From: Candidatus Omnitrophota bacterium
Lineage (GTDB): Bacteria > Omnitrophota > Gorgyraeia > Zapsychrales > JANLHA01
Direction: 5' to 3'
Length of the DNA stretch: 42,440 nucleotides
Assembly (NCBI GenBank): GCA_029560465.1
Contig: JAKQKX010000029.1
Location: 1 to 42,440 of the forward strand
The translations under genes were made by a program, and so were the position numbers. Below, in pieces: positions 24,984 through 42,440 of this stretch. The notes below the pieces were generated by a model, which was not told where the DNA came from, did no database searches, and saw only the letters and a program-made list of their open reading frames with translations. Position 1 is the first letter of the stretch, and each line of letters starts with the position of its first letter.

Positions 24984-25508
24984 ATGATTGAACATGAAAT
25001 GCTGTTCTTGGGCTTGCTCATGGGCGGGCCTAAACACGGTTATGAGATCAAAAGGATTATTGAAGAAGAACTGTATCCTCTCGTCGGGTTGGATATCAAA
25101 TCGATTTATTATCCTTTAAAAAAGATGGAGGAGTTGGACCTGATCACCAAGGATATTGAACGGGAGGGCCGCTGGCCCGAGAAATATGTTTATAAGATCA
25201 CCCTGAAAGGCAAAAAGATATTCAATCATCTTATTACGGAAAGCTTCCTGCTGATCGAGCGGCCCTATTTTAACATAGATTTGTCCCTTTATTTTATCCC
25301 CTACGTAAATCAGAAAATCGCCCGCAGGAAGCTGAAAGCCCGTATTTTTTTCCTGAATCGGATCAAAAAAGGGCTGGAAAAATTTTTAAACCGGAAAAAT
25401 GATTTAACATCCCCGCACCTTAAAATTATCCTGGAACACGATTTGGACCTTGTGGAAGCGGAAATCAAATCTTTCAAAAGGCTGATTGAAACTTTGAATA
25501 GTGCTTGA
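24984..25508 (+). CDS. PadR-family transcriptional regulator
   Basis: This 174-aa regulator's N-terminal winged helix (~1-75) has the PadR layout: 'LFLGLLMGGPKHGYEIKRIIEEEL' followed by 'IKSIYYPLKKMEELDLI' and the wing 'GRWPEKYVYKITLKGKKIF'. The C-terminal half is helical with many Lys/Arg, as in PadR dimerisation arms. PadR proteins usually repress neighbouring genes in response to small aromatic or other molecules. It stands at the head of the salvage/polyketide block, and its stop codon overlaps the -35 box of the next promoter, so control of that promoter is a reasonable guess. Confidence 0.88.
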   Translation: MIEHEMLFLGLLMGGPKHGYEIKRIIEEELYPLVGLDIKSIYYPLKKMEELDLITKDIEREGRWPEKYVYKITLKGKKIFNHLITESFLLIERPYFNIDLSLYFIPYVNQKIARRKLKARIFFLNRIKKGLEKFLNRKNDLTSPHLKIILEHDLDLVEAEIKSFKRLIETLNSA

Positions 25509-25553: not shown

Positions 25554-25656
25554 TTCATGCTTGACGTTTAAGTGGTTTTAATTCAAAGAGATACCTTTGC
25601 TATGGGAGTTTTTGGGGTTCATGAAGGGCCCGTATTTTTTAAGGGAGGGGCTGATT

Positions 25657-27195
25657 ATGAATATGCTGAATGTGTTGCATGATAGAGTGAAGGAGCAGGG
25701 AAACAAACCCGCTTTAATTTTTAAAGACCAGGTTATTTCTTTTGCCGATTTGCAAAAACACGTCATCCGCCTGGCTGCGGCTCTCAGAAAACTCGGCATC
25801 GGGCCTTCGGATAAAGTCGCGGTTTTCCTGCCGAATTGCCCGGAATATGTCTTCGGTTATTTATCCTGTTTTTGTTTGGGAGCCGTTGTTGTCCCCTTGG
25901 ACTATATGTTGAAAGAAGATGAATTGATTTCCTGCCTTTCGCATTCAGAGGCTAAGTTGCTTGTGGCTCTCCCCAAGCAGGACGTGTCGCTAGCCGCAAT
26001 TAAAGCTGCTGTCCCGACTTTGGAAACCGTTATCTTTCTGGCGGACGATGCAGCGGCTTTGGATACTGGGGTTCTTTACGGAGATGTTATGGCCGGTGCG
26101 CAGGACGATATCCCGGAGGTGACGGTGCCGGAGGCGGCCCCTGCTTTAATTATGTATACATCGGGGACCACCGGGCGGCCGAAAGGGATTCTTTTGAATT
26201 ACAAGCACCTCGAAGGGTCGCCCAAGGCTATGGAGCATTTCGTGGATTTAAGCGCCCGGGATATTAAGCTTGCGGCATTGCCGTTCAGCCATAGCGCGGG
26301 TTTCATTTACATTCAAAATTGCCTTTTGTTCGGGATAACGCTTGTTATCATGGACCGGTTCAATCCTTACGAGTTTTTAAAAAATGTTGAGCGTTATCGT
26401 GTGACCTGTTTTCATATCGTCCCAGCCATGTATACGGCTTTGCTGACGTTAAAGCAACTGGATAAATTTGACCTGTCTTCTTTGCGATGGGTGGTTGTGT
26501 TCGGCGCTCCCAGCACCCCGGAAATTATGGCCCGTTTTCACCGGCACTGCCCGAATGCGAAACTCCTGAACGGTTGGGGGATGACGGAAACCTGCCCGCC
26601 TAATTCTGTGACACCGTTAGGGAGCACAAATATTGCGAGCGTCGGGAAGCCCTCTCCTTTATGCGAGATCAAGCTGGTTGATGATACCGGGGGGGACGTT
26701 CCGACCGGAGCGGTCGGGGAAATTGTCATCCGGGGCTGGGTTGTCATGGATGAATATTACAAGGACCCTGCCCAGACAGCGCAGATTAAAAAGAACGGGT
26801 GGCTGTATACCGGCGACCTCGGGCGTTTTGATGAGGAAGGTTTTTTATATATTGTTGGACGGAAGAAAGAGATGATCAAGGTGGGCGGGCAGATTGTTTT
26901 CGCCCCGGAGGTCGAGGCCGCTTTTTATAAACATGAGGCGGTTGCCGAAGTGGCTGTCATCGGGGTTCCGGACCCGCTGCGAGGCGAAGCCGTGAAAGCG
27001 TTTGTGGTATTGAAAGACGGCATGGGGGGTACGGAGGAAGAATTGCGTTACTTTGCCCGGCAGCATCTCGCCCATTTTAAGGTTCCGCAGGTGATCGAGC
27101 TGCGGGAACACCTTCCTAAAAATCGGACGGGGAAAATTGATAAAGAATCGCTGGCGGAGGTTAAAAAAGACCCTTGCCAGGTCGATGGACATTGA
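25657..27195 (+). CDS. Acyl-CoA ligase (AMP-binding, ANL family)
   Basis: This 512-aa acyl-activating enzyme has the P-loop 'YTSGTTGRPKG' (167-177), 'GWGMTETCPP' (motif A5 region, ~306-315), 'YTGDLGRFDEEGFLYIVGR' (A7/A8, ~385-403) and the catalytic Lys motif 'PKNRTGKIDK' near the C-terminus (~486-495). It forms an acyl-AMP then an acyl-CoA. Chain specificity cannot be read, but it resembles medium/long-chain or aryl acid ligases. ATG 25657 was preferred because AGGGAGGGG lies just before it; an in-frame TTG at 25597 has no ribosome site. In context it may activate the acid made by the downstream aldehyde dehydrogenase, or a starter or product of the polyketide enzymes. Confidence 0.9.
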   Translation: MNMLNVLHDRVKEQGNKPALIFKDQVISFADLQKHVIRLAAALRKLGIGPSDKVAVFLPNCPEYVFGYLSCFCLGAVVVPLDYMLKEDELISCLSHSEAKLLVALPKQDVSLAAIKAAVPTLETVIFLADDAAALDTGVLYGDVMAGAQDDIPEVTVPEAAPALIMYTSGTTGRPKGILLNYKHLEGSPKAMEHFVDLSARDIKLAALPFSHSAGFIYIQNCLLFGITLVIMDRFNPYEFLKNVERYRVTCFHIVPAMYTALLTLKQLDKFDLSSLRWVVVFGAPSTPEIMARFHRHCPNAKLLNGWGMTETCPPNSVTPLGSTNIASVGKPSPLCEIKLVDDTGGDVPTGAVGEIVIRGWVVMDEYYKDPAQTAQIKKNGWLYTGDLGRFDEEGFLYIVGRKKEMIKVGGQIVFAPEVEAAFYKHEAVAEVAVIGVPDPLRGEAVKAFVVLKDGMGGTEEELRYFARQHLAHFKVPQVIELREHLPKNRTGKIDKESLAEVKKDPCQVDGH

Positions 27196-27247
27196 TATTT
27201 AAACAGGGAAGACCAGCGAAGGGGTTGTCCTAAAGAAAGGGGTCAAT

Positions 27248-27997
27248 ATGCAAACTATGGTGAAAGACGTCCATATGACAGGCAAAGATTTGATGGGAAT
27301 GGTTCAGCTCCGGCCGGAAGACATCGGGGCTTACGCGCTTGTCCCGGGCCCCCGTGAGCGTATGGAAGCGCTGGTCAAGAAGCTGGAAAATCCCGTCAAG
27401 AATTTTTCTTTTATGGAATACACGATGTATACCGGGCAATATGCGGGGACGAAGGTGACGACGATCAACGGCGGCCGTTTTGCCGCGGACACGGCTATTA
27501 CGACGGAAATCCTGTGCAACGCCCAGGCCGGGACGATGATTCGTATCGGGAGCTGCGGCTCTTTAAGAGAGGATATCAAGGTGGGGGACCTGGTGATCGC
27601 CGATAGCGCCTTGAGAGGGGAGGGGGTGACGCCGTATTATGTGGAAGATAGTTTCCAGACACGGTCTGACCCGGCGCTCACCGCTCAATTCAAAACGGCG
27701 GCAGGCCAGTCCGGGTTGAATGTTCACGTTGGAAAAGTTTGGTCTACCGACGCGATCCTTAAGGAAACCCGCGAGCATGTGGGCCGGGCCGTGGATCAGG
27801 GCGCTGTCGCGGTGGATATGGTGACCTCGGTTTTTTTGACGCTGTGCCAGCTGTATAAGATTCCGGCCACGGTCATCCTGGCGGTCAGCGATAATGTTAT
27901 CACCGGGGAGATGGGATTCATGAACCCGGATTATTACATGGCGGAAGCGGCCATGATAGGAATCTCGCTTAACCTTGTTAAGAACTTGGGACAATAA
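27248..27997 (+). CDS. Nucleoside phosphorylase (PNP/UDP family, NP-I)
   Basis: The 249-aa protein is of the PNP_UDP_1 family. It shows 'LVPGPRERME' (phosphate loop start), 'TMIRIGSCGSL' (phosphate binding, ~96-106), 'AVDMVTSVFLTLC' (in place of the usual 'VEME', so Glu to Asp, with the ribose-contacting Met kept) and 'AVSDN' with the catalytic Asp. It cleaves a nucleoside to base and (deoxy)ribose 1-phosphate. The neighbours MtnA-like isomerase and class II aldolase suggest 5'-methylthioadenosine or 5'-deoxyadenosine as substrate, although by sequence it is nearer to uridine phosphorylases. AAAGGGG precedes the ATG; the next gene follows 4 bp after the stop. Confidence 0.85.
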   Translation: MQTMVKDVHMTGKDLMGMVQLRPEDIGAYALVPGPRERMEALVKKLENPVKNFSFMEYTMYTGQYAGTKVTTINGGRFAADTAITTEILCNAQAGTMIRIGSCGSLREDIKVGDLVIADSALRGEGVTPYYVEDSFQTRSDPALTAQFKTAAGQSGLNVHVGKVWSTDAILKETREHVGRAVDQGAVAVDMVTSVFLTLCQLYKIPATVILAVSDNVITGEMGFMNPDYYMAEAAMIGISLNLVKNLGQ

Positions 27998-28001
27998 CGC
28001 G

Positions 28002-28967
28002 ATGGACACCCCGCTTTTCTGGCCGGCGCATATTAAGGGACGGGTTCTTTATGTCCTGGATGAAACCCTTATCCCGCAAAAAGTGGTTTATATTAAAATT
28101 AGAACTTCGGCGCAGGCGGTGCGGGTTATCAAGACGATGAAGACCCGGGCTTTCGGGCAGTTTCTCGTGGTCCTCAACACGTTTCTTCTGGAAATTCAGT
28201 TTGCCACCAAGGTCACCGATACGCAATTATTGCGCCGCCTTCAAGCTGCGGCGAAAGCCTTGAACGCGAGCCGCCCAACATTCCCATTCTCGGAAGTGAC
28301 GGGGATCGTGATCCGCTGGGCCGAAGAAGCGCACTGTTCGGGAGGAGACCTTCGCAGCACGGTGCAACGGAATATCCTGGGTTATATGGAAGGAATCAGA
28401 CGGCAGCGGTTGGATCGCGTGGCCCGTCTGGCCGGGTTGATGAGGGATGGCGACAGCATCCTGACGCACTGTAACCTTTCCGGAGAGCTGGCGATGGCCG
28501 CGGCGTTGTGCCGGAGAGAGAAAAGGAAGGTGCAGTTTTTTGTCACCGAAACCCGGCCGTATTTCCAGGGGGCTAAATTGACCTGCTGGGAGCTCAAGCG
28601 GGTGGGCGCAGATGTCACCTTAATCGCGGACAATGCCGTGGCGTCCGTCATGTCTGACGCCCTGGTGAACAAGGTTATTGTTGGGTCGGACCGGAACTGC
28701 GCCAACGGTGATTTCGCCAACAAGATCGGGACATATCAGATGGCCGTGTGTGCCCAGGAATTTCATATTCCGTTTTATGTCCTGACGCAGCCTTCTCAAA
28801 AAGTCAAGACGGGAAACGATATCCCGATTGAAATACGGGACGACAAGGAACTCCTGGTTTTTGCCGGGAAAAGGATTGTCCCGCGTGCCGTTAAAGGTTT
28901 TTATCCGGGATTTGATGTGGTCCCCCACCAGTATATAACGAAAGCGGTTCCGATTCATGTTAAGTAA
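28002..28967 (+). CDS. mtnA: MtnA-like sugar-1-phosphate aldose-ketose isomerase (eIF-2B family)
   Basis: The 321-aa protein matches methylthioribose-1-phosphate isomerase of the eIF-2B superfamily. It has the catalytic 'SILTHCNLSGELA' with Cys157, 'TETRPYFQGAKLTCWELKRVGA', 'VGSDRNCANGDFANKIGTY' with Asp230, and a C-terminal 'YVLTQPSQKVKTG' region. The two catalytic residues correspond to the Cys/Asp pair of characterised MtnA proteins. It isomerises 5-methylthioribose (or 5-deoxyribose) 1-phosphate to the ribulose 1-phosphate. It is slightly shorter than typical (about 345 aa). It overlaps the following half-size paralogue by 11 bp. No mtnW, mtnX or mtnC genes are present, so the classical methionine salvage route is not complete here. 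Confidence 0.87.
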   Translation: MDTPLFWPAHIKGRVLYVLDETLIPQKVVYIKIRTSAQAVRVIKTMKTRAFGQFLVVLNTFLLEIQFATKVTDTQLLRRLQAAAKALNASRPTFPFSEVTGIVIRWAEEAHCSGGDLRSTVQRNILGYMEGIRRQRLDRVARLAGLMRDGDSILTHCNLSGELAMAAALCRREKRKVQFFVTETRPYFQGAKLTCWELKRVGADVTLIADNAVASVMSDALVNKVIVGSDRNCANGDFANKIGTYQMAVCAQEFHIPFYVLTQPSQKVKTGNDIPIEIRDDKELLVFAGKRIVPRAVKGFYPGFDVVPHQYITKAVPIHVK

Positions 28968-29442
28968 GGATCAACGATCTTATATCTTATTACACGGGGT
29001 TCCGGAGCCGGCGCTTTTCGACAAATTCAAGGCCTGTAAGGTCAAGGCGTGCGTTATTCCGGAAGGGCGGCCGGATCTAAAAGCCGCGCAGGTCAATAGC
29101 CGGGCGATGTTGAAAAGGGGAATGGCTCCCGTGTTGATCGCGGATAATATGGCCGGGTTTATGTTGTATCGGTCCATGATCAAAGAGATATGGCTTGCCT
29201 ACCAGGTGGGTGATGATCACGGCGCCCTGTGCGATATCGGTGCTTTGATTTACGCGATTTTGGGGAAGAAACATGGAGTGCCGGTCTATGGTTATCCCGC
29301 GGCGGAGAAACGACGGTTCATCGGGAAGCCTCAAGAAATTTTCTGTTTTTGTCAAAAACGCATAGCGCCCCGCGATATCCACGGGTATGTGCCTCTCTTG
29401 GAATGGGTCCCGGGGACGTATATTAAGAGGATGTATGAATAA
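28957..29442 (+). CDS. Half-size MtnA-like protein lacking the catalytic Cys
   Basis: The 161-aa protein aligns by eye with the C-terminal Rossmann-like domain of the upstream isomerase from the catalytic loop onward: 'YILLHGVPEP' matches 'SILTHCNLSG', 'PEGRPDLKAAQVN' matches 'TETRPYFQGAKLT', 'VLIADNMAGFM' matches 'TLIADNAVASV', and 'YQVGDDHGALCDIGALIY' matches 'VGSDRNCANGDFANKIGTY'. The Cys is replaced by Gly14, while the Asp is kept. The N-terminal MtnA domain is absent. It has intact start and stop, an 11-bp overlap with mtnA and an 8-bp overlap with the aldolase. It is not a frameshift remnant, since the upstream copy is complete. It may be a regulatory or partner subunit. Confidence 0.8.
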   Translation: MLSKDQRSYILLHGVPEPALFDKFKACKVKACVIPEGRPDLKAAQVNSRAMLKRGMAPVLIADNMAGFMLYRSMIKEIWLAYQVGDDHGALCDIGALIYAILGKKHGVPVYGYPAAEKRRFIGKPQEIFCFCQKRIAPRDIHGYVPLLEWVPGTYIKRMYE

Positions 29443-30460
29443 CGAAATTATCCAAATTGTAAAGAAGAATATGATCGCGATCGGCCGTTTGTTATGGGAA
29501 AAGGACCTGGCGACGGCGCTCAACGGGAATATCAGCGCCAGGGTGGATGAGGAGCATATCCTGTTAACCGCCAGCAAAACGTGCCTGGGGCTTCTCAACG
29601 AAAGCGACATCCTGTTGATGCGGCTTGATGGAAAAGTGCTGGATCCCGGGACGATTTCCACCGAGCGGCTTGTGCACAATGAAATCTATAAGGAGTTCCC
29701 GCACATTAAAGCCATCCTGCACAGCCATACGACTTTTGCCAACGCGTATTTTTTGGAACAGGATTGTTTGCAACCGAGGATTCTTGAATCGCGGATTTGT
29801 TTAGGGCAGGTGAAAGCAGTCCCGCAGCAGACCCCGTCAGTCACGGACGTCCAGCCCATTGTGTCCGCCCTGAAAGACAATAATGTTATTGTCTTGAAAA
29901 ATCATGGCGTTGTCGCGATGGGGGAAGACCTTTTTGACTGTTTCCTCCTGATTCAGAGCCTGGAGGAAGCGGTTAAGGTGGAATGTTACAGCCGGCTATT
30001 CAGAATCGGGCTGGGGCAGGAGGCCCGGCTTGAGAACGAGGCCCGCCTTTCAACTCAGGGAGAACCGGGCAGTTCACAAAAGCGGTATGTTATGTTTTCC
30101 AAGGAACATATCGATGAGATTGTTAAAGCCGTTAACGCGGACGAGTCGTTAAGGGGCTTGGGCGAAAAAACCGACATGACCATGGAACTGGCTGTCCGGT
30201 TAAACGAAACCGGACAGGTGTACAGTTTTCAGTTTGAGCGGGGCCGGATTGTGAATGTCGGGCACAACAGCGACGCGGAATTCCTGATTTCGGCCCCGGC
30301 CAAAGTCTGGTCGGCTGTTTTTTGCCGGCAGATCGATCCTTTTGTCGCCACGACTCAAAAAAAGATGCATCTTAAAGGGGATTTCGCGCGTATATCCAGA
30401 TGGTACGCCCCTTGCAGCCGGATTTTTGAACTTTGGCAACAGGTCCCCGTTGAAAGCTAG
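29435..30460 (+). CDS. Class II aldolase fused to a C-terminal SCP2-like domain
   Basis: This 341-aa protein has residues 1-~205 forming a class II (zinc) aldolase/adducin domain. It contains 'LNGNISAR' (~29-36), 'STERLVHNEIY' with the catalytic-type Glu77, 'AILHSHTTFANAY' with zinc ligands His96 and His98, and 'LKNHGVVAMG' with His157. Residues ~220-335 resemble an SCP2 (sterol carrier) domain: 'KTDMTMELAVRL' / 'YSFQFERGRIVNVGHNSDAEFLIS' / 'KKMHLKGDFARISR'. Aldolases of this family cleave deoxyribulose or methylthioribulose 1-phosphate to DHAP plus acetaldehyde or a thio-aldehyde. AAGAGG lies 5' of the ATG; an upstream in-frame start at 29387 runs inside the previous gene and is unlikely. 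The lipid-binding-type fusion is unusual. Confidence 0.83.
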   Translation: MNNEIIQIVKKNMIAIGRLLWEKDLATALNGNISARVDEEHILLTASKTCLGLLNESDILLMRLDGKVLDPGTISTERLVHNEIYKEFPHIKAILHSHTTFANAYFLEQDCLQPRILESRICLGQVKAVPQQTPSVTDVQPIVSALKDNNVIVLKNHGVVAMGEDLFDCFLLIQSLEEAVKVECYSRLFRIGLGQEARLENEARLSTQGEPGSSQKRYVMFSKEHIDEIVKAVNADESLRGLGEKTDMTMELAVRLNETGQVYSFQFERGRIVNVGHNSDAEFLISAPAKVWSAVFCRQIDPFVATTQKKMHLKGDFARISRWYAPCSRIFELWQQVPVES

Positions 30461-30471
30461 GAATTATTTTG

Positions 30472-31959
30472 ATGGAAAAATATGATTTATATATCGGAGG
30501 CGCTGTCCGGCCGGCTCGGCCGCAGCGTTATTTCGAGAGTATCAATCCGGCGGTGGGTGCGCCTTTTGCCCTGGTCGCGGACGCGTCCGTGGACGACATG
30601 AGGGAAGCGGTGGCACGCGCCCGGGACAGCTATGAAGCCAGGTCTTGGGCCGGGTTGCCCGTCAAGGAGAGGGGCCTGGTTTTGTCGCGGGTGGCTCAGG
30701 CAATCCGGGAAAACGCCAAACGGTTAGCCGAGCTTGAGAGTCTTGATACCGGGAAAACTATCAAACAAACGACGTTTATCGACGTCCCGTCCTGCGCGGA
30801 CACCTTTGAGTATTTTTCCGGGGCGGGTGATCTTTTGAAAGGGAAACTTAATCCTGTTCCGGCTCCGGTGCGAAGCGTTACGGAACGGGAACCCTTGGGG
30901 GTTGTGGCCTGTCTGATCCCTTGGAATTATCCCCTTATCATGTTTGCCTGGAAAGCCGCTCCGGCTCTTTTGGCCGGGAACTCCGTCGTTTTTAAACCGT
31001 CGCAGCACGCCAGTGTGTCGCTGTTATATCTGGCGGCGCTCATCCGTGACCTGGGTCTTCCTGACGGCGTTTTGAATATCGTTGCGAGTTCGCGGCATGA
31101 GGTGGCCCAGGACCTGATTGAAAGCCCGGATGTGCGGATGATCAGCTTTACCGGCGGCACGGAAACTGGACGAGACGTCATGGCCCGGGCCGCCCGGACG
31201 ACTAAAAAAGTGAGCCTGGAGCTGGGAGGGAAATCCCCGAATATTGTTTTTGGCGATTGTGATATGGACGCGGCCATCGGGGGAACTCTGTCGGCTATTT
31301 TTATGAACCAGGGGCAGATGTGCACGGCCGGGTCTCGGTTGCTGCTGGAAGATACGATATACGAAGAATTTTTAGCCAGGCTTGAAGAGAAAACCCGTGG
31401 GTTAAAGATTGGCAACAGCATAAATTATGATACCGATTTCGGCCCGCTTATCAGCGAAGGGCACCGGGCCCAAGTGCTTTCTTGTATTCAGAAAGGGCTT
31501 GCCCAGGGCGCCCGGCTGGTTTGCGGCGGGAAAATTCCTCCAGGGCTGCCTTCGGATATTCAAAAAGGTTTTTATCTGGAGCCAACAATTTTTGCCGATG
31601 TCGATAATACGATGACGGTCGCCCGGGAAGAGATTTTCGGCCCAGTGTTGGCGGTGATTAAATTTTCTGGCCTGGACCACGCCGTGAGCCTGGCCAATGA
31701 CTCCCCGTATGGCCTGGCGTCGTGTGTGTGGACGAAAAGCATTAATAAGGCCAGCCAGGTGTCCAGCCGGTTGCAATGCGGGATCGTGTGGGTAAACACG
31801 TACGGGGGGTTTTATAATGAGGCCCCGTTTGGGGGGTATAAGCAGAGCGGGGTCGGACGGGAGTTGGGGGAGGAGGGTCTTTTGGAATATACTCAATCGA
31901 AACATGTTTGTGTCGATGTCACTCCCGGCGGCCGGTCGTTGGTCACGAGTTGGTTTTGA
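30472..31959 (+). CDS. NAD(P)-dependent aldehyde dehydrogenase
   Basis: This 495-aa ALDH is of the betaine/aldehyde dehydrogenase type. Markers are 'NYPLIMFAWKAAPALLAGNSVVFKPS' region (cofactor), 'FTGGTETGRDVM', 'LELGGKSPN' with general base Glu250, 'NQGQMCTAGSR' with nucleophile Cys284 and 'EEIFGPVLAVIKF'. It oxidises an aldehyde to the acid. In this operon the natural substrate would be the aldehyde released by the upstream aldolase, and the acid could go to the acyl-CoA ligase. It is 11 bp after the aldolase stop and is the last gene of the salvage half. The start is ATG 30472; a TTG one codon upstream is in frame but needless. Confidence 0.92.
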   Translation: MEKYDLYIGGAVRPARPQRYFESINPAVGAPFALVADASVDDMREAVARARDSYEARSWAGLPVKERGLVLSRVAQAIRENAKRLAELESLDTGKTIKQTTFIDVPSCADTFEYFSGAGDLLKGKLNPVPAPVRSVTEREPLGVVACLIPWNYPLIMFAWKAAPALLAGNSVVFKPSQHASVSLLYLAALIRDLGLPDGVLNIVASSRHEVAQDLIESPDVRMISFTGGTETGRDVMARAARTTKKVSLELGGKSPNIVFGDCDMDAAIGGTLSAIFMNQGQMCTAGSRLLLEDTIYEEFLARLEEKTRGLKIGNSINYDTDFGPLISEGHRAQVLSCIQKGLAQGARLVCGGKIPPGLPSDIQKGFYLEPTIFADVDNTMTVAREEIFGPVLAVIKFSGLDHAVSLANDSPYGLASCVWTKSINKASQVSSRLQCGIVWVNTYGGFYNEAPFGGYKQSGVGRELGEEGLLEYTQSKHVCVDVTPGGRSLVTSWF

Positions 31960-31990
31960 CTGAAGAGCGTAAGGAGCGCGGCCGTTTTTC

Positions 31991-32019
31991 TTGTCACCAG
32001 GTTGGTCGCGATTTCTAAA
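31991..32019 (+). promoter_or_regulatory. Weak candidate promoter for the polyketide half
   Basis: TTGTCA (31991-31996), 17-bp spacer, TCTAAA (32014-32019), the only promoter-like pair I see in the 235-bp gap (31960-32194) between the aldehyde dehydrogenase and the next gene. A 5-bp hairpin (TTGCC/GGCAA) lies further downstream. Otherwise this gap holds nothing recognisable. Confidence 0.3.
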
Positions 32020-32194
32020 AAAGTGAATTTCCGTTTCAGGAAGACGTGTGTTCAGGCGGATCGGTTTTGGTTTTTTCGAAAAGAAGAGCCGCTTGCCAGG
32101 CAGGGCAAAGGCGTTGCCCGGTGAGGCGGGCGCACGGTTAATCCTTAAAGGCGCGGCTTTCGCCGCTGAAGCCCCGAGGAGAGGATGGTGTCGT

Positions 32195-32482
32195 ATGGCT
32201 GATCAACAGCCTCAGATGGCTTGGGAAAAAAACGCATTGATAAAATATGAGAACATGATCCGGCGGCTTCCGTTATTTCATCGGGACATCGCCGATGAGG
32301 TCGTGCGGAAAAAAGCGATGCAGAACGCTTTGGCCCGGCGGGGAGCGATGATTGAAGAAAGCGATATCCTTCGCGCTTTCTTTTCTGAAGTGCCCATGAC
32401 GTTTTACGGGCTTATGATCCGTCTTCTTGAAGAAACTGGATTTGATTACGGCCCGTATGATCCGGGGCATCATAAATCCTGA
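32195..32482 (+). CDS. Small PCP_red-like helical protein
   Basis: This 95-aa protein has a conserved-looking core 'WEKNALIKYENMIRRLPLFHRDIADEVVRKKAMQNALARRGAMIEESDILRAF', which resembles the small PCP_red domain found at the C-terminus of protochlorophyllide reductase ChlB and in stand-alone proteins ('iP..vR..a....E..A...G...I'). ATG 32195 has AGGAGAGG upstream; an in-frame GTG at 32048 would add a low-complexity leader and is not supported. The function is unknown. It opens the polyketide half and is followed 30 bp later by an SRPBCC gene with a good Shine-Dalgarno. Confidence 0.6.
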   Translation: MADQQPQMAWEKNALIKYENMIRRLPLFHRDIADEVVRKKAMQNALARRGAMIEESDILRAFFSEVPMTFYGLMIRLLEETGFDYGPYDPGHHKS

Positions 32483-32512
32483 ATTTTATTATGAATCACG
32501 AAGGAGACTTGA

Positions 32513-33007
32513 ATGTTATTTCATAAGAACAAAACGCCTGTTCCCCCAAAGGGCCTGAAGCTTATCCAGCTTTTCACTTTCGTTGAAATCCCGGTCGGCC
32601 AGATAGCGGACGGGGCGCTGCATTGGGGGGAGGCGGACTGGTGGCCCGGGTCCGGTCTTCTTGAGTATTCCAAAACGACGGGCGGGGACGCGGGCTTAGG
32701 CACGCGGTACCGTTTCAAACTTGACGGGTTTCTCGCCCCCGCCGGTGCTTCCGAAGTCACGCAGTATGAGCCACGTCAGGTCATGGAGAGGACTTTCCGC
32801 GGGGGATTTTTTGCCGGATATGAGCTCCTGCAGATCAGTGAACGGGCCAACGGCACGCGCGTTGATTATGAAATGCATTACCGGGTGGTGGGATTTGTTC
32901 AGACCCTGTTATGGAATTTGTTTTATAAAAAGAAGTATGTCCGCGCTATAGAGTTGTTGCTGGATGCGTTAAAGCAGCATATCGTGAAACATTATTATCA
33001 TGCTTAA
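32513..33007 (+). CDS. SRPBCC (START-like) protein, possible polyketide cyclase/dehydrase
   Basis: The 164-aa protein follows the START/SRPBCC pattern: an N-terminal strand 'KLIQLFTFVEIPVGQIADGALHW', 'GLGTRYRFKLDG', 'YEPRQVMERTFRGGFFAGYELLQIS', 'GTRVDYEMHYRVVGFVQTLLWNLF' and a C-terminal helix 'YVRAIELLLDALKQHI'. Members bind hydrophobic ligands in a deep cavity and include polyketide cyclases. It differs from the TcmN-like gene at 37986. The ATG follows AAGGAGA. Between a helical protein and a reductase in the polyketide half, a role in folding the chain is plausible, but simple ligand binding cannot be excluded. Confidence 0.75.
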   Translation: MLFHKNKTPVPPKGLKLIQLFTFVEIPVGQIADGALHWGEADWWPGSGLLEYSKTTGGDAGLGTRYRFKLDGFLAPAGASEVTQYEPRQVMERTFRGGFFAGYELLQISERANGTRVDYEMHYRVVGFVQTLLWNLFYKKKYVRAIELLLDALKQHIVKHYYHA

Positions 33008-33022
33008 ATATCACGGAGCGCC

Positions 33023-34021
33023 ATGATGGAAATTGCGGTTATCGGGGCCGGGGCCATCGGGTCGGTCGTCGCCGGCCTTCTCACGAAAACCGGCGAGAAT
33101 GTCCTTCTCGTGGGGCGGCCGGCTCAGGTTAAGGCTATCCGGGACAAAGGGCTCGCCATCAAGACGTCCAATGGACAGGAGACTGTTCCTGTTCGGGTGG
33201 CTGAACGCCTGGATCGGGCCTATGACCTCGTTATTTTTACCGTAAAAAGCCAGGATTTGGAGCAGGCCTATCAGGATAATATGGCTTACCTGGAGCATGG
33301 GCGCGTTTTAACGACCCAGAATGGCGTCCAGGGAGACAATCTTTTAAGCACGCACTTTGAGCCGGGAAATATGTACAGCAGTATTGTGATGTTCGGGGCC
33401 ACGTATATGCAGTCCGGCCAAGTCGTTTTAAATTTTCCAGGAGACTGGATCCTGGGGAAGCCTTACACCCCGCTGGATAACGTGATTGAAGACATAGCCG
33501 GGATCCTGAGGAAAGCTTTTCCGGTGACGGTGACCCCGTTCATCCTGGGGATGAAATGGCTGAAGCTTTTTATTAATTTTAATAATAGCATCCCCGCGTG
33601 CCTGAACCGCTCGATGCAGGAAACGTTCGCTGACCTTGATTTTTGCCGGCTGAGCATTTTGCTCTTGAACGAGGGCTTGCAGGTTGTCCGGTCGGCGGGA
33701 ATAGAGATGGTGTCGCTGCCGAGTTTCCCGGTGGAAAGGATATTGGGGATCGCCGGGATGCCGATAGAAACGGCCGCCGGCATTATGCAGAAGACGTTAA
33801 CCGGCTTAAGCCGGGAGCCTTTATACGGGTCGATTTTACAAAGCATCAAAAGGGGGAAGCCCAGTGAAATAGATTTTATTAACGGGGAAGTAGACCTCTT
33901 GGCTGCCAGTCTTCGGATGAACGCCCCTTTAAACCGGAAAATCGTGGCGTTGGTGCACCGGGTTGAAAACACCGGAGTATTCTTTTCCCCAGCGCAGCTT
34001 AAGGCGGAATTTGGATTGTAA
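33023..34021 (+). CDS. Ketopantoate reductase-like protein (ApbA/PanE family)
   Basis: The 332-aa NAD(P)-dependent reductase starts with the Rossmann 'AVIGAGAIGSVVAGLL' (~5-20), then 'DLVIFTVKSQDLEQAY' (~68-83), 'TTQNGVQGDNLL' (~94-105) and the family's catalytic Lys/Asn region 'GMKWLKLFINFNNSIPACL' (~174-192). True PanE makes pantoate for CoA; here the setting suggests a tailoring reductase acting on a polyketide keto group. If it is a real PanE it could instead support phosphopantetheine supply for the ACP. Two tandem Met codons start the gene. The 147-bp gap after it contains no supported gene. Confidence 0.82.
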   Translation: MMEIAVIGAGAIGSVVAGLLTKTGENVLLVGRPAQVKAIRDKGLAIKTSNGQETVPVRVAERLDRAYDLVIFTVKSQDLEQAYQDNMAYLEHGRVLTTQNGVQGDNLLSTHFEPGNMYSSIVMFGATYMQSGQVVLNFPGDWILGKPYTPLDNVIEDIAGILRKAFPVTVTPFILGMKWLKLFINFNNSIPACLNRSMQETFADLDFCRLSILLLNEGLQVVRSAGIEMVSLPSFPVERILGIAGMPIETAAGIMQKTLTGLSREPLYGSILQSIKRGKPSEIDFINGEVDLLAASLRMNAPLNRKIVALVHRVENTGVFFSPAQLKAEFGL

Positions 34022-34168
34022 CCGGGTGTTCCGTCATGATGCCCCGGGGTCGTTGGGGGATGTGGGGAAAGAAGCGCTTGTCCCTCGGACGCCGGGCGGG
34101 AGCGTAACAATTAATCGTGGTCATCGCCAAGGGAAAGCCCTCGGGATTGACCTGGAAAGAGGAAAAAC

Positions 34169-35428
34169 ATGTCCAGACGTGTTGTCGTGACGGGGGTCGG
34201 GGTGATTGCCCCCAATGGTATCGGTAATGAAGAATGTTTCAATGCGATGGTCAACGGCGTTTCCGGCGTCCAGCGGGTTACTGAATTTGACGTGTCGCAA
34301 TTTAATACAAAGATCGCCGCTCAGGTCCGCCGCTTTGATCCCATTGCCTTGGGGTTGACCCGGCAGGAGGCGATCCGCATGGACCGGTATGTCCAGTTCG
34401 CGGTCGTCGCCGCCCGTATGGCCTGGGAAGATGCCGGCCTGGATTCGGCGCGGCTCGACAAGGAACGCATGGGCGTATCCCTGGCCAACGCGATTTGCGG
34501 GACCAAATATATGGAAGAGGAATTCGCCCTTGTGACGGACAGCGGGAAGAACCCGATTGACCCGTCTCTGGTCCGCCAGGATTTATACGATGCGGCGATG
34601 TTCAACACCCCGTCCAGTGAAATCACGGCCCGCTATGGTCTTAAGGGCATCTGCAATACGATCTCAACCGGATGCACGGCGGGGACCGATTCGGTCGGAT
34701 TCTCTTATGAGGCGATTCAGGCCGGAGAGGCGGACCTCATGGTCACGGGAGCCAGTGAGGCGCCGATCACGCCGATCACGCTGGGGGCTTTCGATTGCGT
34801 CAATGTGTTGTCTGCCAGCAACGAGGAGCCGGAAAAAGCCTCCCGTCCTTTTGATAGTAAACGCAACGGCTTTGTCATTTCGGAAGGGGCGGGCCTGCTG
34901 GTCGTTGAGGAGCTTGGGCATGCTTTAAAACGCGGGGCGCGGATTTACTGTGAGATTATCGGGTACGGGACGACGAACAATGCTTACCACATGACGGATC
35001 TTCCTCCAGAAGGTGATGCCATGGCCGACAGCATCGTGCTGGCCCTCAAGAGTGCGGGCGTCAGGCCGGATGAGATCGATTATATCAACGCCCACGGGTC
35101 GTCGACCCGCCAGAATGATGTGTTTGAAACCAATGCGTACAAGATGGCCCTGGGGGAGGCTGTTTACCGCATCCCCATCAGTTCTTTGAAATCCATGATC
35201 GGTCATCCCCTGGCCGGGGCGAACGGCGTGGAACTGGCGCTCGGCGCCATGATGTTCGAACGGAATATCCTCCCGCCGACGATCAATCAGGAGTTCCCGG
35301 ACCCCGAATGCGATCTGGATTATATCCCCAACAAGGCTCGGGAGAAAAAAGTCAATATCATGCTCAAAACAAGCAGCGGTTTTTCCGGGATCCATTCATC
35401 AATGGTCTTAAAAAGATTTCATTCCTAA
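34169..35428 (+). CDS. Type II polyketide ketosynthase alpha (KS-alpha)
   Basis: This 419-aa beta-ketoacyl synthase performs decarboxylative condensation of malonyl-ACP. The catalytic set is complete: Cys169 in 'ISTGCTAGTDSVGF', His309 in 'INAHGSSTRQND', Lys341 and His346 in 'LKSMIGHPLAGANG'. The 'GCTAGTDSVG' and 'AHGS.T.QND..ET' wording is closer to KS-alpha of aromatic type II systems ('GCTSGLD..G') than to FabF. AGAGGA precedes the ATG. A second ketosynthase with lost catalytic residues follows, then an ACP, the minimal PKS order KS-CLF-ACP. An ordinary FabF or an aryl-polyene KS is the alternative, less likely given the CLF and TcmN-like cyclase nearby. Confidence 0.88.
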   Translation: MSRRVVVTGVGVIAPNGIGNEECFNAMVNGVSGVQRVTEFDVSQFNTKIAAQVRRFDPIALGLTRQEAIRMDRYVQFAVVAARMAWEDAGLDSARLDKERMGVSLANAICGTKYMEEEFALVTDSGKNPIDPSLVRQDLYDAAMFNTPSSEITARYGLKGICNTISTGCTAGTDSVGFSYEAIQAGEADLMVTGASEAPITPITLGAFDCVNVLSASNEEPEKASRPFDSKRNGFVISEGAGLLVVEELGHALKRGARIYCEIIGYGTTNNAYHMTDLPPEGDAMADSIVLALKSAGVRPDEIDYINAHGSSTRQNDVFETNAYKMALGEAVYRIPISSLKSMIGHPLAGANGVELALGAMMFERNILPPTINQEFPDPECDLDYIPNKAREKKVNIMLKTSSGFSGIHSSMVLKRFHS

Positions 35429-35440
35429 AGGGGGAAAAGA

Positions 35441-35518
35441 ATGATTGTGGCGATGGGGTTTGAAGAGGGAGGTGCTGGCGTGCTCGCCGCGAGTTTGTTC
35501 TTAAGTGCGTATTTGTGA
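35441..35518 (+). CDS. Possible 25-codon ORF between KS-alpha and CLF
   Basis: An ATG preceded by AAGGGGGAAAAGA opens 25 codons (MIVAMGFEEGGAGV, then a hydrophobic LAASLFLSAYL end) in the 138-bp gap between the ketosynthase genes. Actinobacterial KS and CLF genes usually overlap, so this gap is unusual. The ORF may be a translated spacer peptide or chance. Confidence 0.3.
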   Translation: MIVAMGFEEGGAGVLAASLFLSAYL

Positions 35519-35566
35519 TCAAAATAAAAATAAGAAGCAGACACTTTATAGAGACAAGGATTTCAT

Positions 35567-36808
35567 ATGCAAAGAATTGCCATAACTGGAATGGGAATTG
35601 TCAGCCCGAGCGGCCTTGATAAGAGGAAGTTCTGGGCTAACATCAAGAGCGGGCGTTCTGAGGTTAAAATCATTGACCGGTTTGACGCGTCAAGATACCC
35701 GTCGCATGTCGCCGGACAGGTCCGTGAATTAGATGCCTACAGCAAAGTCTCCTCAAGGCTGTTAAAGAAGATTGACCTGTTCGCCCACATGGCCCTGGTG
35801 GCCTCCGAACTGGCGATTGAGGACGCCTGTATTGACATGAAAAGTGAGAACCTGAAACGTGCTGGTATTTTTATGGGCAACGCGATCGGCGGCTGGTTAT
35901 ACGCGGAAACTGAATTGCGCGACCTGTATATCGAAGGGCGGGAGGGGGTCAGTCCGTTCATGGCCTCCGCTTGGTTCCCGGCCGCCCCGCAAGGGCAGAT
36001 TTCAATTCATTACGGGATTAAAGGCTACAGTAAGACTATCGTCGCGGACCGGGCCAGTTCGCTGATGGCCATCGCCTATGGCGCCAAGAATCTCACGCGT
36101 GGCCATAATGACTTTGTCCTCGCCGGGGGGATGGAAGCCCCGGTGACGCCGTATGCGCTTTTGTGCTGCAACACATCAGGGATGCTGACGCGGAATAATG
36201 CGCAGGCCAGGACCGCCTACAGGCCGTTCGACAGAAACCGTGACGGGTATGCCATCGCGGAGGGGGCGGGGTGCCTTATCCTCGAGCCGCCGGCCCGGGC
36301 TAGGAAGCGCCAAGCCCAAGTTTCGGGCTATATCGCGGGTTTCGGGACCACGACAGACGGGGTTGACCGGATTCATCCCGCGGACGACGGGGTTCAGTTG
36401 GCGCGGGCGATTCGTCTGGCGTTGGATGACGCCGGATGCGGCCCGGAGGCCATTGATTATATTTGCGCGGACGGCTCTGCCACGGACCTGGGGGACCGCA
36501 CGGAAACCATGGCGATCAAACAGGTTTTCGGGGCCCACGCGTATAAGATCCCGGTGACGGCCCCGAAATCGGTTTTCGGCAATATGCTGGGCGCCTCGGG
36601 CGCTTTGGATGTCATAACGGTGCTGTTGGCGATGGAGCATAACATCATTCCTCCCACGATTAATTACCAGACTCCGGACCCGGAATGTGACCTGGACTAT
36701 TGCCCGAATGAAAGTCAAAACCAAGAAATTAACAGGGCGCTGGTCGTTAATCGAGGCCGGGGTGGTATCAATGCCGCGTTGGTTTTGGAAAAAAACTTTA
36801 TAATGTAA
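35567..36808 (+). CDS. Chain length factor (KS-beta), catalytically inactive ketosynthase
   Basis: This 413-aa thiolase-fold protein is homologous to the preceding KS-alpha over its whole length. Aligned with it, the nucleophile Cys position is Arg162 ('IVADRASSLM'), the first His is Asp302 ('ICADGSATDL'), the second His is Asn339 ('KSVFGNMLGASG'), while the Lys (334) is kept. Chain length factors of aromatic type II systems likewise lack the Cys and His residues and dimerise with KS-alpha to set chain length; they usually have Gln at the Cys site, so Arg here is unusual. The frame is intact and the ACP follows 12 bp later, so this is not a decayed gene. Confidence 0.87.
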   Translation: MQRIAITGMGIVSPSGLDKRKFWANIKSGRSEVKIIDRFDASRYPSHVAGQVRELDAYSKVSSRLLKKIDLFAHMALVASELAIEDACIDMKSENLKRAGIFMGNAIGGWLYAETELRDLYIEGREGVSPFMASAWFPAAPQGQISIHYGIKGYSKTIVADRASSLMAIAYGAKNLTRGHNDFVLAGGMEAPVTPYALLCCNTSGMLTRNNAQARTAYRPFDRNRDGYAIAEGAGCLILEPPARARKRQAQVSGYIAGFGTTTDGVDRIHPADDGVQLARAIRLALDDAGCGPEAIDYICADGSATDLGDRTETMAIKQVFGAHAYKIPVTAPKSVFGNMLGASGALDVITVLLAMEHNIIPPTINYQTPDPECDLDYCPNESQNQEINRALVVNRGRGGINAALVLEKNFIM

Positions 36809-36820
36809 GGAGGATTTGCC

Positions 36821-37057
36821 GTGGATGTGGAAGCGAAAATCAAGAAAATTTTTCAACGTGTCTTAGACGTGGCCCCGGATGACATTAAGCCGGATGAATC
36901 CCTCGTGTCGTCCCTGGGGGTGGACTCCACGGAGCTGGTGGAAATAACCGTCGGGATCAAAAAGGAGCTCAACGCCCTTTTAACGGACGGGGAGTTGAAG
37001 AAGACCCACACTTTTAACGAAATTGTGGAAATTGTTAAGTCCAAAGTTTCGCCGTAG
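36821..37057 (+). CDS. Acyl carrier protein of the polyketide synthase
   Basis: The 78-aa acidic helical protein has the phosphopantetheine attachment motif 'LGVDSTELVEI', with Ser at about residue 37. The helix I region 'IKKIFQRVLDVAPDDIKPDESLV' and a C-terminal helix 'TFNEIVEIVKSKV' complete the fold. The start is GTG at 36821, set by AAGGAGG at 36808-36814. After the modification the Ser carries the growing chain for KS-CLF. It lies 12 bp after the CLF. It is distinct from fatty-acid AcpP, which has 'DSLDTVEL'; here it reads D-S-T. Confidence 0.92.
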   Translation: MDVEAKIKKIFQRVLDVAPDDIKPDESLVSSLGVDSTELVEITVGIKKELNALLTDGELKKTHTFNEIVEIVKSKVSP

Positions 37058-37120
37058 AAATTCTTTTGAATTTCGGGCGCGGGGCATCGTTTCGCGAGAT
37101 GCCGGTTGAAAGGGAGAGGT

Positions 37121-37921
37121 ATGATTATTGATTTGAGTTTGCCGATCGATGACACATTGCAGGAAACCCATGCCGCAACCATCGAGCGCATCAGCCATGC
37201 GGACGGCGTGGATCATTTTAATTGGGTGGTGATGAAAAACCGGCCTGGAGGGGAGAAAGAATACTCGGCCGGAAAGCGCGTTGTTTCCGCCGCGGAAGTC
37301 CCTGACGGGGAAATGTTGTCCCTGGAGATTGTCCATGCTTCCGTTCATATGGGCTCGCACGTGGATGCCCCGTTTCATTACGGGAGCCGCTGTCAAGGCC
37401 GGCCTGCCCGCATGATTGAAGATGTCCCGTTGGAATGGTGTTTCGGGGACGGGGTGATTTTGGATTTCACGCATTTTCATTATCCGGATGTCATCCGGAA
37501 GCCCGATGTCGAGGACGCGCTGAGGAAAATCCCTTATACGTTGAAGCCCATGGACATTGTCCTTATATACACCGGCGGAGATGCGATGTTGGGGACGCCT
37601 GATTATGTGAATAAATACGTCGGCATGATGCCTGATGCCGTTGAGTTTATTTTAGACCAGGGCGTTAAGATGCTGGGTATCGACACGATCGGCCTGGACC
37701 GGCCTTGTTTTGAAATGTTCCGGGAATTTTTAAGCACGAAAGACAAGTCGAAAATCTGGCCGTCGCATTTTCTCGGCCGCCGGAGAGAATTTTGCCATAT
37801 GGAACGGCTTGGAAATCTGGGCGCTGTCCCGCACGCCGTCGGCTTTAAGGTGGCATGCTTTCCGGTGCGGATTAAAAATGCCGGGGCTGGATGGGCGAGG
37901 GTTGTGGCTATCCTTGATTAA
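37121..37921 (+). CDS. Cyclase family protein (PF04199, kynurenine formamidase-like fold)
   Basis: The 266-aa protein carries the metal-binding signature 'ASVHMGSHVDAPFHY' (H-x-G-[ST]-H-x-D-x-P-x-H) typical of the cyclase/arylformamidase family, followed by 'DIVLIYTG' and 'VKMLGIDTIGLDRP'. Family members hydrolyse N-formylkynurenine or act as polyketide cyclases and lactone-type hydrolases. ATG 37121 has AAAGGGAGAGG upstream; an in-frame upstream GTG at 37106 is not better placed. In the polyketide setting it could catalyse a ring closure or release the finished chain by hydrolysis. The metal is probably zinc or manganese. Confidence 0.83.
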   Translation: MIIDLSLPIDDTLQETHAATIERISHADGVDHFNWVVMKNRPGGEKEYSAGKRVVSAAEVPDGEMLSLEIVHASVHMGSHVDAPFHYGSRCQGRPARMIEDVPLEWCFGDGVILDFTHFHYPDVIRKPDVEDALRKIPYTLKPMDIVLIYTGGDAMLGTPDYVNKYVGMMPDAVEFILDQGVKMLGIDTIGLDRPCFEMFREFLSTKDKSKIWPSHFLGRRREFCHMERLGNLGAVPHAVGFKVACFPVRIKNAGAGWARVVAILD

Positions 37922-37929
37922 AATTAAGA

Positions 37930-37952
37930 CCCCGGGTTTTTTAGCCCCGGGG
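37930..37952 (+). other. GC-rich hairpin with U-rich loop between cyclase genes
   Basis: CCCCGGG (37930-37936) can pair with CCCGGGG (37946-37952) across a 9-nt loop TTTTTTAGC. There is no T-tract after the stem, so a classical terminator is unlikely; a processing or stability element between the cyclase and aromatase messages is possible. Confidence 0.4.
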
Positions 37953-37985
37953 AGGGGGCAGGAATAAACTGAAGGAGGGAACACG

Positions 37986-38447
37986 ATGGGACATACAAGG
38001 AATTCTATTTTTATTAATGCTCCGTACGGAGTGGTTTTTGATATTTCCAACCATATCGAGAGGTGGACGGAACTTTTCGGCGATGAATATGTGAAGGCCG
38101 AGACACTGGAAAGAAACGGTCACGAGATTACCTTTCGCCTTACGGATGATGAAAATAAATCCTGGGTTTCCAAGCGCTGGCTCCATAAAGAACAGTATTA
38201 CGCGTTTGCCTCCCGCCATGACCCGCTGTTCCCCTTTAAATACATGAAAATTATATGGTTGTATCATGTGACACCAGAGGGGACCCTGATGACCTGGATT
38301 CAGGATTTTGAAATGGATCCTAAATTTACCGCATATACTGAAGAGCAGATTGAGGGGTTTATTAACGAACATTCCCGCCAGAATATGAAAATTTTTAAAG
38401 AAGTTATTGAAAAAGAAGCCCGGGAAGTGGCCTCACATCACGCATAA
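37986..38447 (+). CDS. Aromatase/cyclase, TcmN N-terminal type (SRPBCC)
   Basis: This 153-aa protein strongly resembles the mono-domain aromatase/cyclases of aromatic type II polyketide systems such as the TcmN N-terminal domain and WhiE/ZhuI types. It has 'NSIFINAPYGVVFDISNHIERWTELF', 'AETLERNGHEITFRL', 'SWVSKRW', 'YMKIIWLYHVTPEGTLMTWIQDFEM' and 'INEHSRQNMKIFKEVIE'. These proteins hold the poly-beta-ketone on the ACP in a deep pocket and direct first-ring closure and aromatisation. AAGGAGGG precedes the ATG by the correct distance. It is the single best indicator that the KS/CLF pair makes an aromatic product rather than a fatty acid. Confidence 0.9.
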   Translation: MGHTRNSIFINAPYGVVFDISNHIERWTELFGDEYVKAETLERNGHEITFRLTDDENKSWVSKRWLHKEQYYAFASRHDPLFPFKYMKIIWLYHVTPEGTLMTWIQDFEMDPKFTAYTEEQIEGFINEHSRQNMKIFKEVIEKEAREVASHHA

Positions 38448-38485
38448 GCAAAAAACAGGAAAAAATTCTTACATTTTTTATGGTT

Positions 38486-38521
38486 TTTTGATACTAATAT
38501 TATTATGGTATAATAATATTA
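38486..38521 (+). promoter_or_regulatory. Promoter with long palindrome upstream of the exporter
   Basis: TTTTGA (38486-38491), 17-bp spacer and perfect TATAAT (38509-38514); a TTGATA at 38488-38493 gives a 15-bp spacing. Over the -10 box lies a perfect inverted repeat, TAATATTATTAT (38495-38506) and ATAATAATATTA (38510-38521), 12-bp arms with a 3-bp centre. The overlap with the -10 fits a repressor operator for the MFS gene, such as one lifted when the product accumulates. The whole 38448-38556 region is strongly AT-rich. Confidence 0.6.
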
Positions 38522-38556
38522 ATATAAAAAATCTTATATTTTTTTTATACTTTCTT

Positions 38557-39720: not shown

Positions 39721-39804
39721 GGCGGGCGGTTCCCGTGGCCCGAACTTGGGTGAAAATAATGAAATGTGTTTTAGTGTCCTGTTGTTTTACAGAAAGGGAA
39801 GAAA

Positions 39805-40575: not shown

Positions 40576-40652
40576 AAGGAATGAGCATGGCGGCAATGTG
40601 AGTAGGGCGCTTCATGATGGACGTGGGAAGAGGAGGAAGGGGGGTGACATGA

Positions 40653-40886
40653 GTGGATAAAACCGTTTTTACTTTCAAAAAGAACAAGTTCCAGGAAGTC
40701 AGGGTCGGGATTCGGGAGTATAAAGGCAATGACTTGGTTGACATCCGGACTTGGACGATGACCCAGGGGTCCGAAGAAATGGTCCCGACGGCAAAAGGAG
40801 TTTCTATCAACATTAATTTGCTCCCGGACTTAAGAAAAGCCCTTGAAGTCGTCGAGCAGGAGTTAAAACAGAACGCCATGATGTGA
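40653..40886 (+). CDS. PC4/p15-like single-stranded DNA-binding protein
   Basis: This 77-aa protein shows the PC4 (SUB1) pattern 'EVRVGIREYKGNDLVDIRTW' followed by 'MVPTAKGVSININLLPDLRKALEVVEQEL', with the 'pT.KGi.l' turn. In eukaryotes PC4 is a transcription coactivator; bacterial members are small single-stranded DNA-binding proteins of poorly known role. The start is GTG at 40653. Its place among biosynthesis genes suggests it could regulate them, but it may be a bystander. Confidence 0.8.
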   Translation: MDKTVFTFKKNKFQEVRVGIREYKGNDLVDIRTWTMTQGSEEMVPTAKGVSININLLPDLRKALEVVEQELKQNAMM

Positions 40887-41065
40887 TTCCCCTCCGGGAT
40901 GATGTCGGGTCGGGGTTGATGAGGCAGATGACGGGTGGCGCCATGCCTTGGTGGAATGGCAAAGGCCGTGTTTTATTCCACCGGAGCGTCCATGCCGTTT
41001 TTGATTTTTTGTAATCCCCCGGGAAGAGGGGTTGCGCACGTTGAAAACTTTTGAAAGGTGTTGGT

Positions 41066-42150: not shown

Positions 42151-42440
<290 letters not shown>

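Follow-up and report, generated by a model that had tools for sequence, protein, structure and literature searches.

In the dihydroxyacetone phosphate (DHAP) shunt and in 5-deoxyribose disposal (drdK-drdI-drdA; mtnP or mtnN/mtnK, mtnA and ald2), a single operon encodes a phosphorylase or kinase, an MtnA-type isomerase and a class II aldolase, which together yield DHAP and an aldehyde. The fluoroacetate route of Streptomyces cattleya and MA37 applies a phosphorylase, an isomerase, an aldolase and an aldehyde dehydrogenase to a 5'-modified adenosine in a natural-product setting. In the hopanoid pathway, the radical S-adenosylmethionine (SAM) enzyme HpnH, which has no B12 domain, and the NP-I family nucleosidase/phosphorylase HpnG act on lipid-bound adenosine. 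WhiE/TcmN-type polyketide synthases (PKSs) combine a ketosynthase (KS), a KS homologue that serves as chain-length factor (CLF), an acyl carrier protein (ACP), an aromatase/cyclase and a ketoreductase. Here we describe a 42,440-nucleotide stretch of DNA (the window) from a Candidatus Omnitrophota bacterium (NCBI assembly GCA_029560465.1, contig JAKQKX010000029.1, positions 1 to 42,440 of the forward strand; part of contig C59 of a 2.77 Mb genome), in which a cassette of nucleoside-processing genes lies upstream of a type II polyketide cluster.

The cassette resembles the DHAP shunt in its phosphorylase, isomerase and aldolase, but the module sits within a type II PKS cluster. Its phosphorylase and isomerase are diverged and exist alongside canonical copies in the genome, its aldolase is fused to an SCP2 domain and falls outside the DrdA clade, and it adds an aldehyde dehydrogenase, an aryl/long-chain CoA ligase and HALF, a half-size relative of the isomerase. 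The hopanoid route, unlike this module, has no isomerase or aldolase. In contrast to the WhiE/TcmN-type systems, the cluster occurs in a Gram-negative uncultured phylum, where the majority of genomes sampled from several families have it, and it contains additional radical SAM and nucleoside-processing genes. We conclude that the module is very probably part of the polyketide cluster and not a general salvage system. Since it is a fixed part of an aromatic-polyketide cluster in more than a third of the sampled Omnitrophota genomes, the cassette probably helps build a compound, perhaps a fatty one, and does not only clear waste.

Gene order and conservation of the cassette

The cassette genes, all on the + strand, are packed closely and partly overlap from the ligase to the aldehyde dehydrogenase (25597-31959). 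The first encodes an AMP-forming acyl-CoA ligase of the aryl/long-chain type (ACSL; 25597-27195; PF00501, E 1.3e-88). It is followed by an NP-I nucleoside phosphorylase with a DMV motif (PNP; 27248-27997; PF01048, PNP_UDP_1, E 6e-38) and an MtnA-like isomerase (MTNA; true ATG at about 28002, end at 28967; PF01008, IF-2B, E 7e-52). HALF, a 161-residue half-size IF-2B/MtnA paralogue (28957-29442; PF01008, E 3.4e-5), precedes a class II aldolase with a C-terminal SCP2 domain (ALDO; about 29435-30460; PF00596, E 9.4e-37; PF02036, E 1.1e-4). The last gene encodes a non-acylating aldehyde dehydrogenase of the betaine-aldehyde/phenylacetaldehyde type (ALDH; 30469-31959; PF00171, E 2.3e-167). A first-pass annotation of the window had named a phosphorylase, an isomerase and an aldolase, with an aldehyde dehydrogenase after them and an acyl-CoA ligase before. 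These genes are present where it placed them, on the + strand and with the family matches it gave, and the PF00171 and PF00501 matches bear out the two flanking enzymes. The ‘direct succession’ it described is interrupted by HALF, which intervenes between the isomerase and the aldolase. It overlooked HALF as well as the SCP2 domain and the downstream polyketide cluster (32048-41977). Its enzyme logic, leading from a nucleoside through a pentose-1-phosphate and a ketose-1-phosphate to DHAP and an aldehyde, and then to an acid and an acyl-CoA, agrees with the family memberships and the retained catalytic residues.

The downstream cluster has the composition of a type II PKS, with all genes on the + strand. 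It encodes a KS with the active Cys (34169-35428; fabF model, 459 bits; STGCTAG), a CLF-like KS homologue in which this Cys is changed to Arg (35567-36808; alignment to 4ls5; match to the actinorhodin CLF 1tqy_B), an ACP (36821-37057; DSxE motif) and a TcmN/WhiE-VI-type aromatase/cyclase (37986-38447; PDB 3tl1, E 7.6e-24; TcmN 2rez, E 5.4e-23).

Our evidence consists of sequences, mostly from metagenome-assembled genomes (MAGs), and residue roles were carried over by alignment. Neighborhoods were compared in 39 cassette loci from other genomes of the phylum and one control stretch of this genome, and in a second, partly overlapping set of 80 named loci. Nearly all records matched in GTDB genomes are ‘Candidatus Omnitrophota/Omnitrophica’. 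Two arrangements were found. In that of the window, a PadR-family gene is followed by ACSL, PNP, MTNA, HALF, ALDO and ALDH, by a radical SAM gene in relatives, and then by DUF2621, PanE, the two KSs, ACP, a cyclase (CYC), the aromatase, an MFS exporter, an SDR reductase and an amidohydrolase (AMDH). In the second, PanE, the two KSs, the radical SAM gene, ACP, CYC, aromatase, MFS, SDR and AMDH come before PNP, MTNA, ALDO, ALDH and ACSL. The same cassette order recurs in dozens of neighborhoods at roughly 40-77% protein identity, which places the gene set far beyond chance. Of 384 evenly sampled Omnitrophota genomes, 141 contain the phosphorylase, 134 the aromatase and 127 both (Fisher p 2e-75, without correction for kinship). 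A search for the CLF-like KS in 8 genomes with the phosphorylase and without the aromatase found one close homologue (57%, in G262); the matches in the others (36-42%) may be ordinary FabF. The cassette is also present in two MAGs labelled Deltaproteobacteria (L113, with PKS genes, and L127) and in one labelled Planctomycetales (L137), although such labels are not proof of origin. The recurrence of the cassette order together with PKS genes, in two arrangements and in both Omnitrophota and a deltaproteobacterial MAG, argues for its membership in the polyketide cluster.

Enzymes of the cassette

The phosphorylase retains the purine-type SDN motif, which contains the Asp of the purine site, and the Arg preceding the GSCG loop. 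The top solved-fold match of its AlphaFold2 (AF2) model (pLDDT 90.4) is the S. solfataricus methylthioadenosine (MTA) phosphorylase (1jdv, E 4.8e-23). Because the SDN aspartate is kept and the nearest fold is this Sulfolobus enzyme, the purine-nucleoside assignment of the first-pass annotation stands against its alternative, a uridine-specific enzyme. In the NP-I family, a Glu (Glu181 in E. coli PNP, Glu198 in uridine phosphorylase) holds the ribose 2'- and 3'-hydroxyls. This Glu is visible in the aligned PNPs 1xe3 and 2ac7 (VEMET) and is retained in the other PNP_UDP_1 protein of this genome (DMET). A scan found 530 relatives of the phosphorylase, the best 80 of which were kept. In alignments the Glu is replaced by Val in 80 of 80 cassette phosphorylases, and further aligned relatives have DMV[ST]. 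The position aligned to the 5'-hydroxyl-binding His of the S. pyogenes uridine phosphorylase is Met, again in 80 of 80. Membership in the HpnG family was rejected on a score of 46.7 bits, against a cut-off of 187.1 (TIGR03468). Two loci carry a tandem duplicate of the phosphorylase gene (L046, 8036-9607; L047, 8347-9892), the second copy having diverged (46-50% identity to that of the window) with DMV retained.

Alignment to 2yrf, 6a34 and relatives indicates that the isomerase retains the catalytic Cys and Asp of MtnA together with its phosphate contacts (THCN, GSDR, SRPT, QGAKLT and NKIG). The RGAPAIG loop of MtnA is changed to TRAFGQ in the window and is TRA[FMV]GQ across relatives; none of 76 isomerase sequences has the RGAPA motif. 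The score with the canonical MtnA model TIGR00512 is 208 bits, under the cut-off of 279. HALF lacks the catalytic Cys, and the Asp is also gone in most sequences, suggesting that it is probably a non-catalytic partner. HALF is conserved beside the isomerase in the window's arrangement. It was undetected in most second-arrangement loci, so it is not essential, and a role as a required component was rejected.

The MtnA-like isomerase and a phosphorylase fold close to MTA phosphorylase could point to MTA itself as the substrate, which would give methylthioacetyl-CoA as a starter or tailoring unit. However, the genome separately encodes a canonical MtnA (contig C40) and an MTA-phosphorylase-type protein (MtnP, contig C13; assigned by sequence reading), and an MTA substrate leaves the strict link to the radical SAM enzyme described below unexplained. 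We therefore consider this reading improbable. The first-pass annotation had noted no other methionine-salvage genes, which is correct for the window but not for the genome. The canonical MtnP/MtnA type handles both MTA and 5'-deoxyadenosine (PMC12632272).

All 41 aldolase sequences scanned have a C-terminal SCP2 domain (best E 1.4e-9), and the alignment shows no variation at the metal/catalytic positions E, HxH and H. The AF2 model of the window's enzyme (pLDDT 92.6) has an aldolase part closest to FucA/YgbL folds, and the sequence scores 62.7 bits with the Aquifex protein 2irp, 58.9 with FucA (4c24) and 32.9 with DrdA (6btd). The cassette aldolase lies outside the characterized DrdA clade, nearer in sequence and fold to the FucA/YgbL/Aquifex class II aldolases, and DrdA is a protein of 222 residues without SCP2. 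The cassette aldolase is the single PF00596 protein in the genome, and a separate MtnB dehydratase was not found. We found no paper combining ‘class II aldolase’ and ‘sterol carrier protein’ in the open-licence literature. The SCP2 domains of UbiJ and UbiT act on hydrophobic quinone intermediates (PMC6747719), and because of this precedent a respiratory polyketide quinone was considered as the product. This idea was rejected, with nothing beyond the SCP2 domain found in its favor; ordinary quinone genes have been reported from parts of Omnitrophota (PMC10066038). Five loci (L075, L118, L131, L161 and L162) have, by sequence reading, a pair of genes for a DhnA/FbaB-like class I aldolase and a zinc alcohol dehydrogenase near the aldolase and ALDH.

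The ligase scores 459 of 476 bits with NCBIfam PRK06187 and 273 of 729 with acetate--CoA ligase. Its nearest PDB chains are FadD5, feruloyl-CoA ligase and coumaroyl-CoA ligase, and by sequence it is closer to aryl/long-chain ligases than to acetate ligases. The best matches of ALDH include the BADH and StyD models, both under cut-off. Sequence reading also identified genes for a PlsC-like acyltransferase, a PurU-like deformylase and an AsmA/DUF748-like protein between ALDH and ACSL in L168, L169, L162, L163, L172 and L148, and, in 23 loci (family n13) that mostly have the second arrangement, an RlmN-like radical SAM gene directly 3' of the ligase gene.

The radical SAM enzyme and the 5' group

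In relatives, the cluster includes a gene for a B12-binding radical SAM protein of ~490 residues. It is located between ALDH and DUF2621, behind the two KS genes, or, in lineages without the aromatase, at the ACSL/PNP or MTNA/HALF position. The protein is encoded in 34 of the 36 long loci that contain both PNP and KS. The space between ALDH and DUF2621 in the window (31959-32048) is too short for this gene, but a homologue with 55% identity to the L053 protein is encoded elsewhere in the same genome (contig C14, 27263-28708). BchE and HpnJ are the best curated matches of the L053 relative, both far under the NCBIfam cut-offs (202/481 and 143/578 bits). A ladderane reading was rejected, as the ladderane model gave 82/360 bits. 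About 10 more B12-type radical SAM homologues are clustered within 35 kb of contig C14 of this genome (G000; 60-94 kb; L093 and L094).

We propose that the B12-binding radical SAM enzyme, encoded on contig C14 in this genome, would make a 5'-deoxyadenosine-type nucleoside. The phosphorylase would free adenine and yield a pentose-1-phosphate, and the isomerase, perhaps in complex with HALF, would form the ketose-1-phosphate. The aldolase would then cleave this to DHAP and a C2-extended aldehyde (R-CH2-CHO), which ALDH would oxidize to R-CH2-COOH and ACSL would convert to the CoA thioester R-CH2-CO-CoA. Families, catalytic residues, gene order and co-occurrence were read from the sequence, and the reaction steps were inferred from them. 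The enzyme order fixes every step of the chemistry except for the identity of the 5' group, and the direction would be set by the irreversible oxidation and the ATP-driven ligation. Operation in reverse, with the aldolase joining DHAP to a cluster-made aldehyde and the isomerase and phosphorylase building a 5'-modified nucleoside, would take advantage of the reversibility of phosphorolysis and of an aldol equilibrium that lies strongly toward condensation (~1e-4 for cleavage; PMC6079011). It is nevertheless quite unlikely, as the non-acylating ALDH and the ATP-dependent ligase that accompany the cassette in most loci pull the opposite way.

In plain DHAP-shunt disposal, the substrate would be 5'-deoxyadenosine released by the radical SAM enzyme, a product that inhibits such enzymes. 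The cassette would convert it to adenine, DHAP and acetaldehyde, and the latter to acetate and acetyl-CoA, which may feed the PKS. Each step has a precedent (drd pathway, PMC6079011; DHAP shunt, PMC12632272), the radical SAM gene is a constant part of the cluster and BchE-like in nature, and Met in place of the 5'-hydroxyl-binding His suits a 5'-deoxy substrate. On the other hand, the genome keeps canonical MtnP and MtnA, the aldolase scores lower with DrdA than with 2irp or FucA, the ligase is not of the acetate type, and the SCP2 domain is left unexplained. We regard disposal as plausible though short of probable. The ‘salvage cassette for SAM by-products’ of the first-pass annotation thus survives as one of two main readings; its ‘DHAP-shunt-like’ label holds as chemistry and is doubtful as a description of general salvage.

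We tentatively favor the other reading, in which the substrate would carry a bulky, polyketide-derived group on C5' and the module would attach a carboxyl unit of two carbons derived from the ribose of SAM. This group, most likely hydrophobic, would be held by the SCP2 domain, and the HpnH/HpnG pair provides a model for such a substrate. The reading is favored by the SCP2 domain in every aldolase scanned, by the kinship of the ligase to FadD5 and the feruloyl and coumaroyl ligases, by the invariant Met at the 5'-hydroxyl-binding position and by the canonical MtnP and MtnA already in the genome. It also agrees with five loci of other families (L074, L076, L078, L079 and L083), in which the cassette and radical SAM gene are followed by MMPL exporter, LolA-like/DUF1329 and DUF1302 outer-membrane-type genes, as in lipid export. 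Several points weigh against it. The SCP2 domain could instead serve complex formation. The 5' position of the phosphorylase is Ser, His or Gln in L074, L078 and L079, which are from lineages without the aromatase. The Glu-to-Val change is left unexplained, because the ribose diol would remain in a 5'-alkyladenosine. We know of no B12-dependent radical SAM enzyme that adenosylates its substrate, and by analogy a BchE-like reaction would simply release 5'-deoxyadenosine. That radical-SAM adenosylation, phosphorolysis, isomerization, aldol cleavage, oxidation and CoA ligation together add a two-carbon carboxymethyl (acyl-CoA) unit, drawn from the ribose of SAM, to a polyketide or lipid across much of Omnitrophota is plausible, though rather less likely than not.

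A fluorine substituent at the 5' position was also considered, with 5'-fluoro-5'-deoxyadenosine converted to fluoroacetyl-CoA as a PKS unit. The enzyme order is like that of the fluoroacetate route, and sequence reading placed genes for a CrcB-like fluoride channel and a DUF190-like protein in the AMDH-PNP interval of 10 loci (L111, L117, L128, L129, L146, L150, L151, L156, L162 and L163). In contrast to that route, no member of PF01887 (fluorinase/SAM hydroxide adenosyltransferase) was found in this genome or the 10 genomes with the CrcB pair, and this absence from all 11 largely refutes the reading, which we consider extremely unlikely. A fluoride riboswitch near the CrcB genes gave no Rfam match in four loci.

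Other genes of the cluster and implications

Upstream of the cassette, a PadR-family regulator, probably of the cluster, is encoded at 24984-25508 (+; PF03551, E 1.3e-9), the same position as in most relatives of this arrangement. The remaining genes of the polyketide cluster, also on the + strand, begin with that of the DUF2621-like small protein (32048-32482; PF11084, under cut-off), a conserved neighbor that in relatives comes after the B12 radical SAM gene. An SRPBCC/polyketide-cyclase-like protein (32513-33007; PF10604, weak and under cut-off) and the ketopantoate-reductase-like oxidoreductase PanE (33023-34021; PF02558/PF08546) are encoded before the KS pair. The cyclase-family protein CYC (37106-37921; PF04199, E 3.2e-28) lies between ACP and the aromatase, which is followed by the MFS exporter (38407-39720; PF07690, E 1e-36) and the SDR ketoreductase (39805-40575; PF00106, E 1.1e-51). 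A PC4-like small protein (40653-40886; PF02229, E 1.3e-12) adjoins AMDH here and in L052. AMDH (41051-41977; PF04909) is an amidohydrolase-2 protein resembling aromatic-acid decarboxylases, its nearest PDB entry being 5-carboxyvanillate decarboxylase (E 4.6e-20). The 5' part of a 16S rRNA gene (42151-42440, +; Rfam RF00177, 162.7 bits) is cut by the end of the window.

A published catalogue lists KS-CLF pairs from ‘Candidatus Omnitrophica’ (PMC10132072), and Omnitrophota are reported to contain biosynthetic clusters, some of them ‘ladderane’ ones (PMC9902471), so earlier work may already have come across the PKS itself. No description of the nucleoside-to-acyl-CoA module was found in the open-licence literature. 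Our analysis suggests that natural-product biosynthesis can incorporate the reactions of the DHAP shunt, and it points to an aromatic polyketide without a known product that a large part of an uncultured phylum retains. Should the module act on a polyketide-bound adenosine, it would represent an unrecognized route for adding carbon from SAM's ribose.

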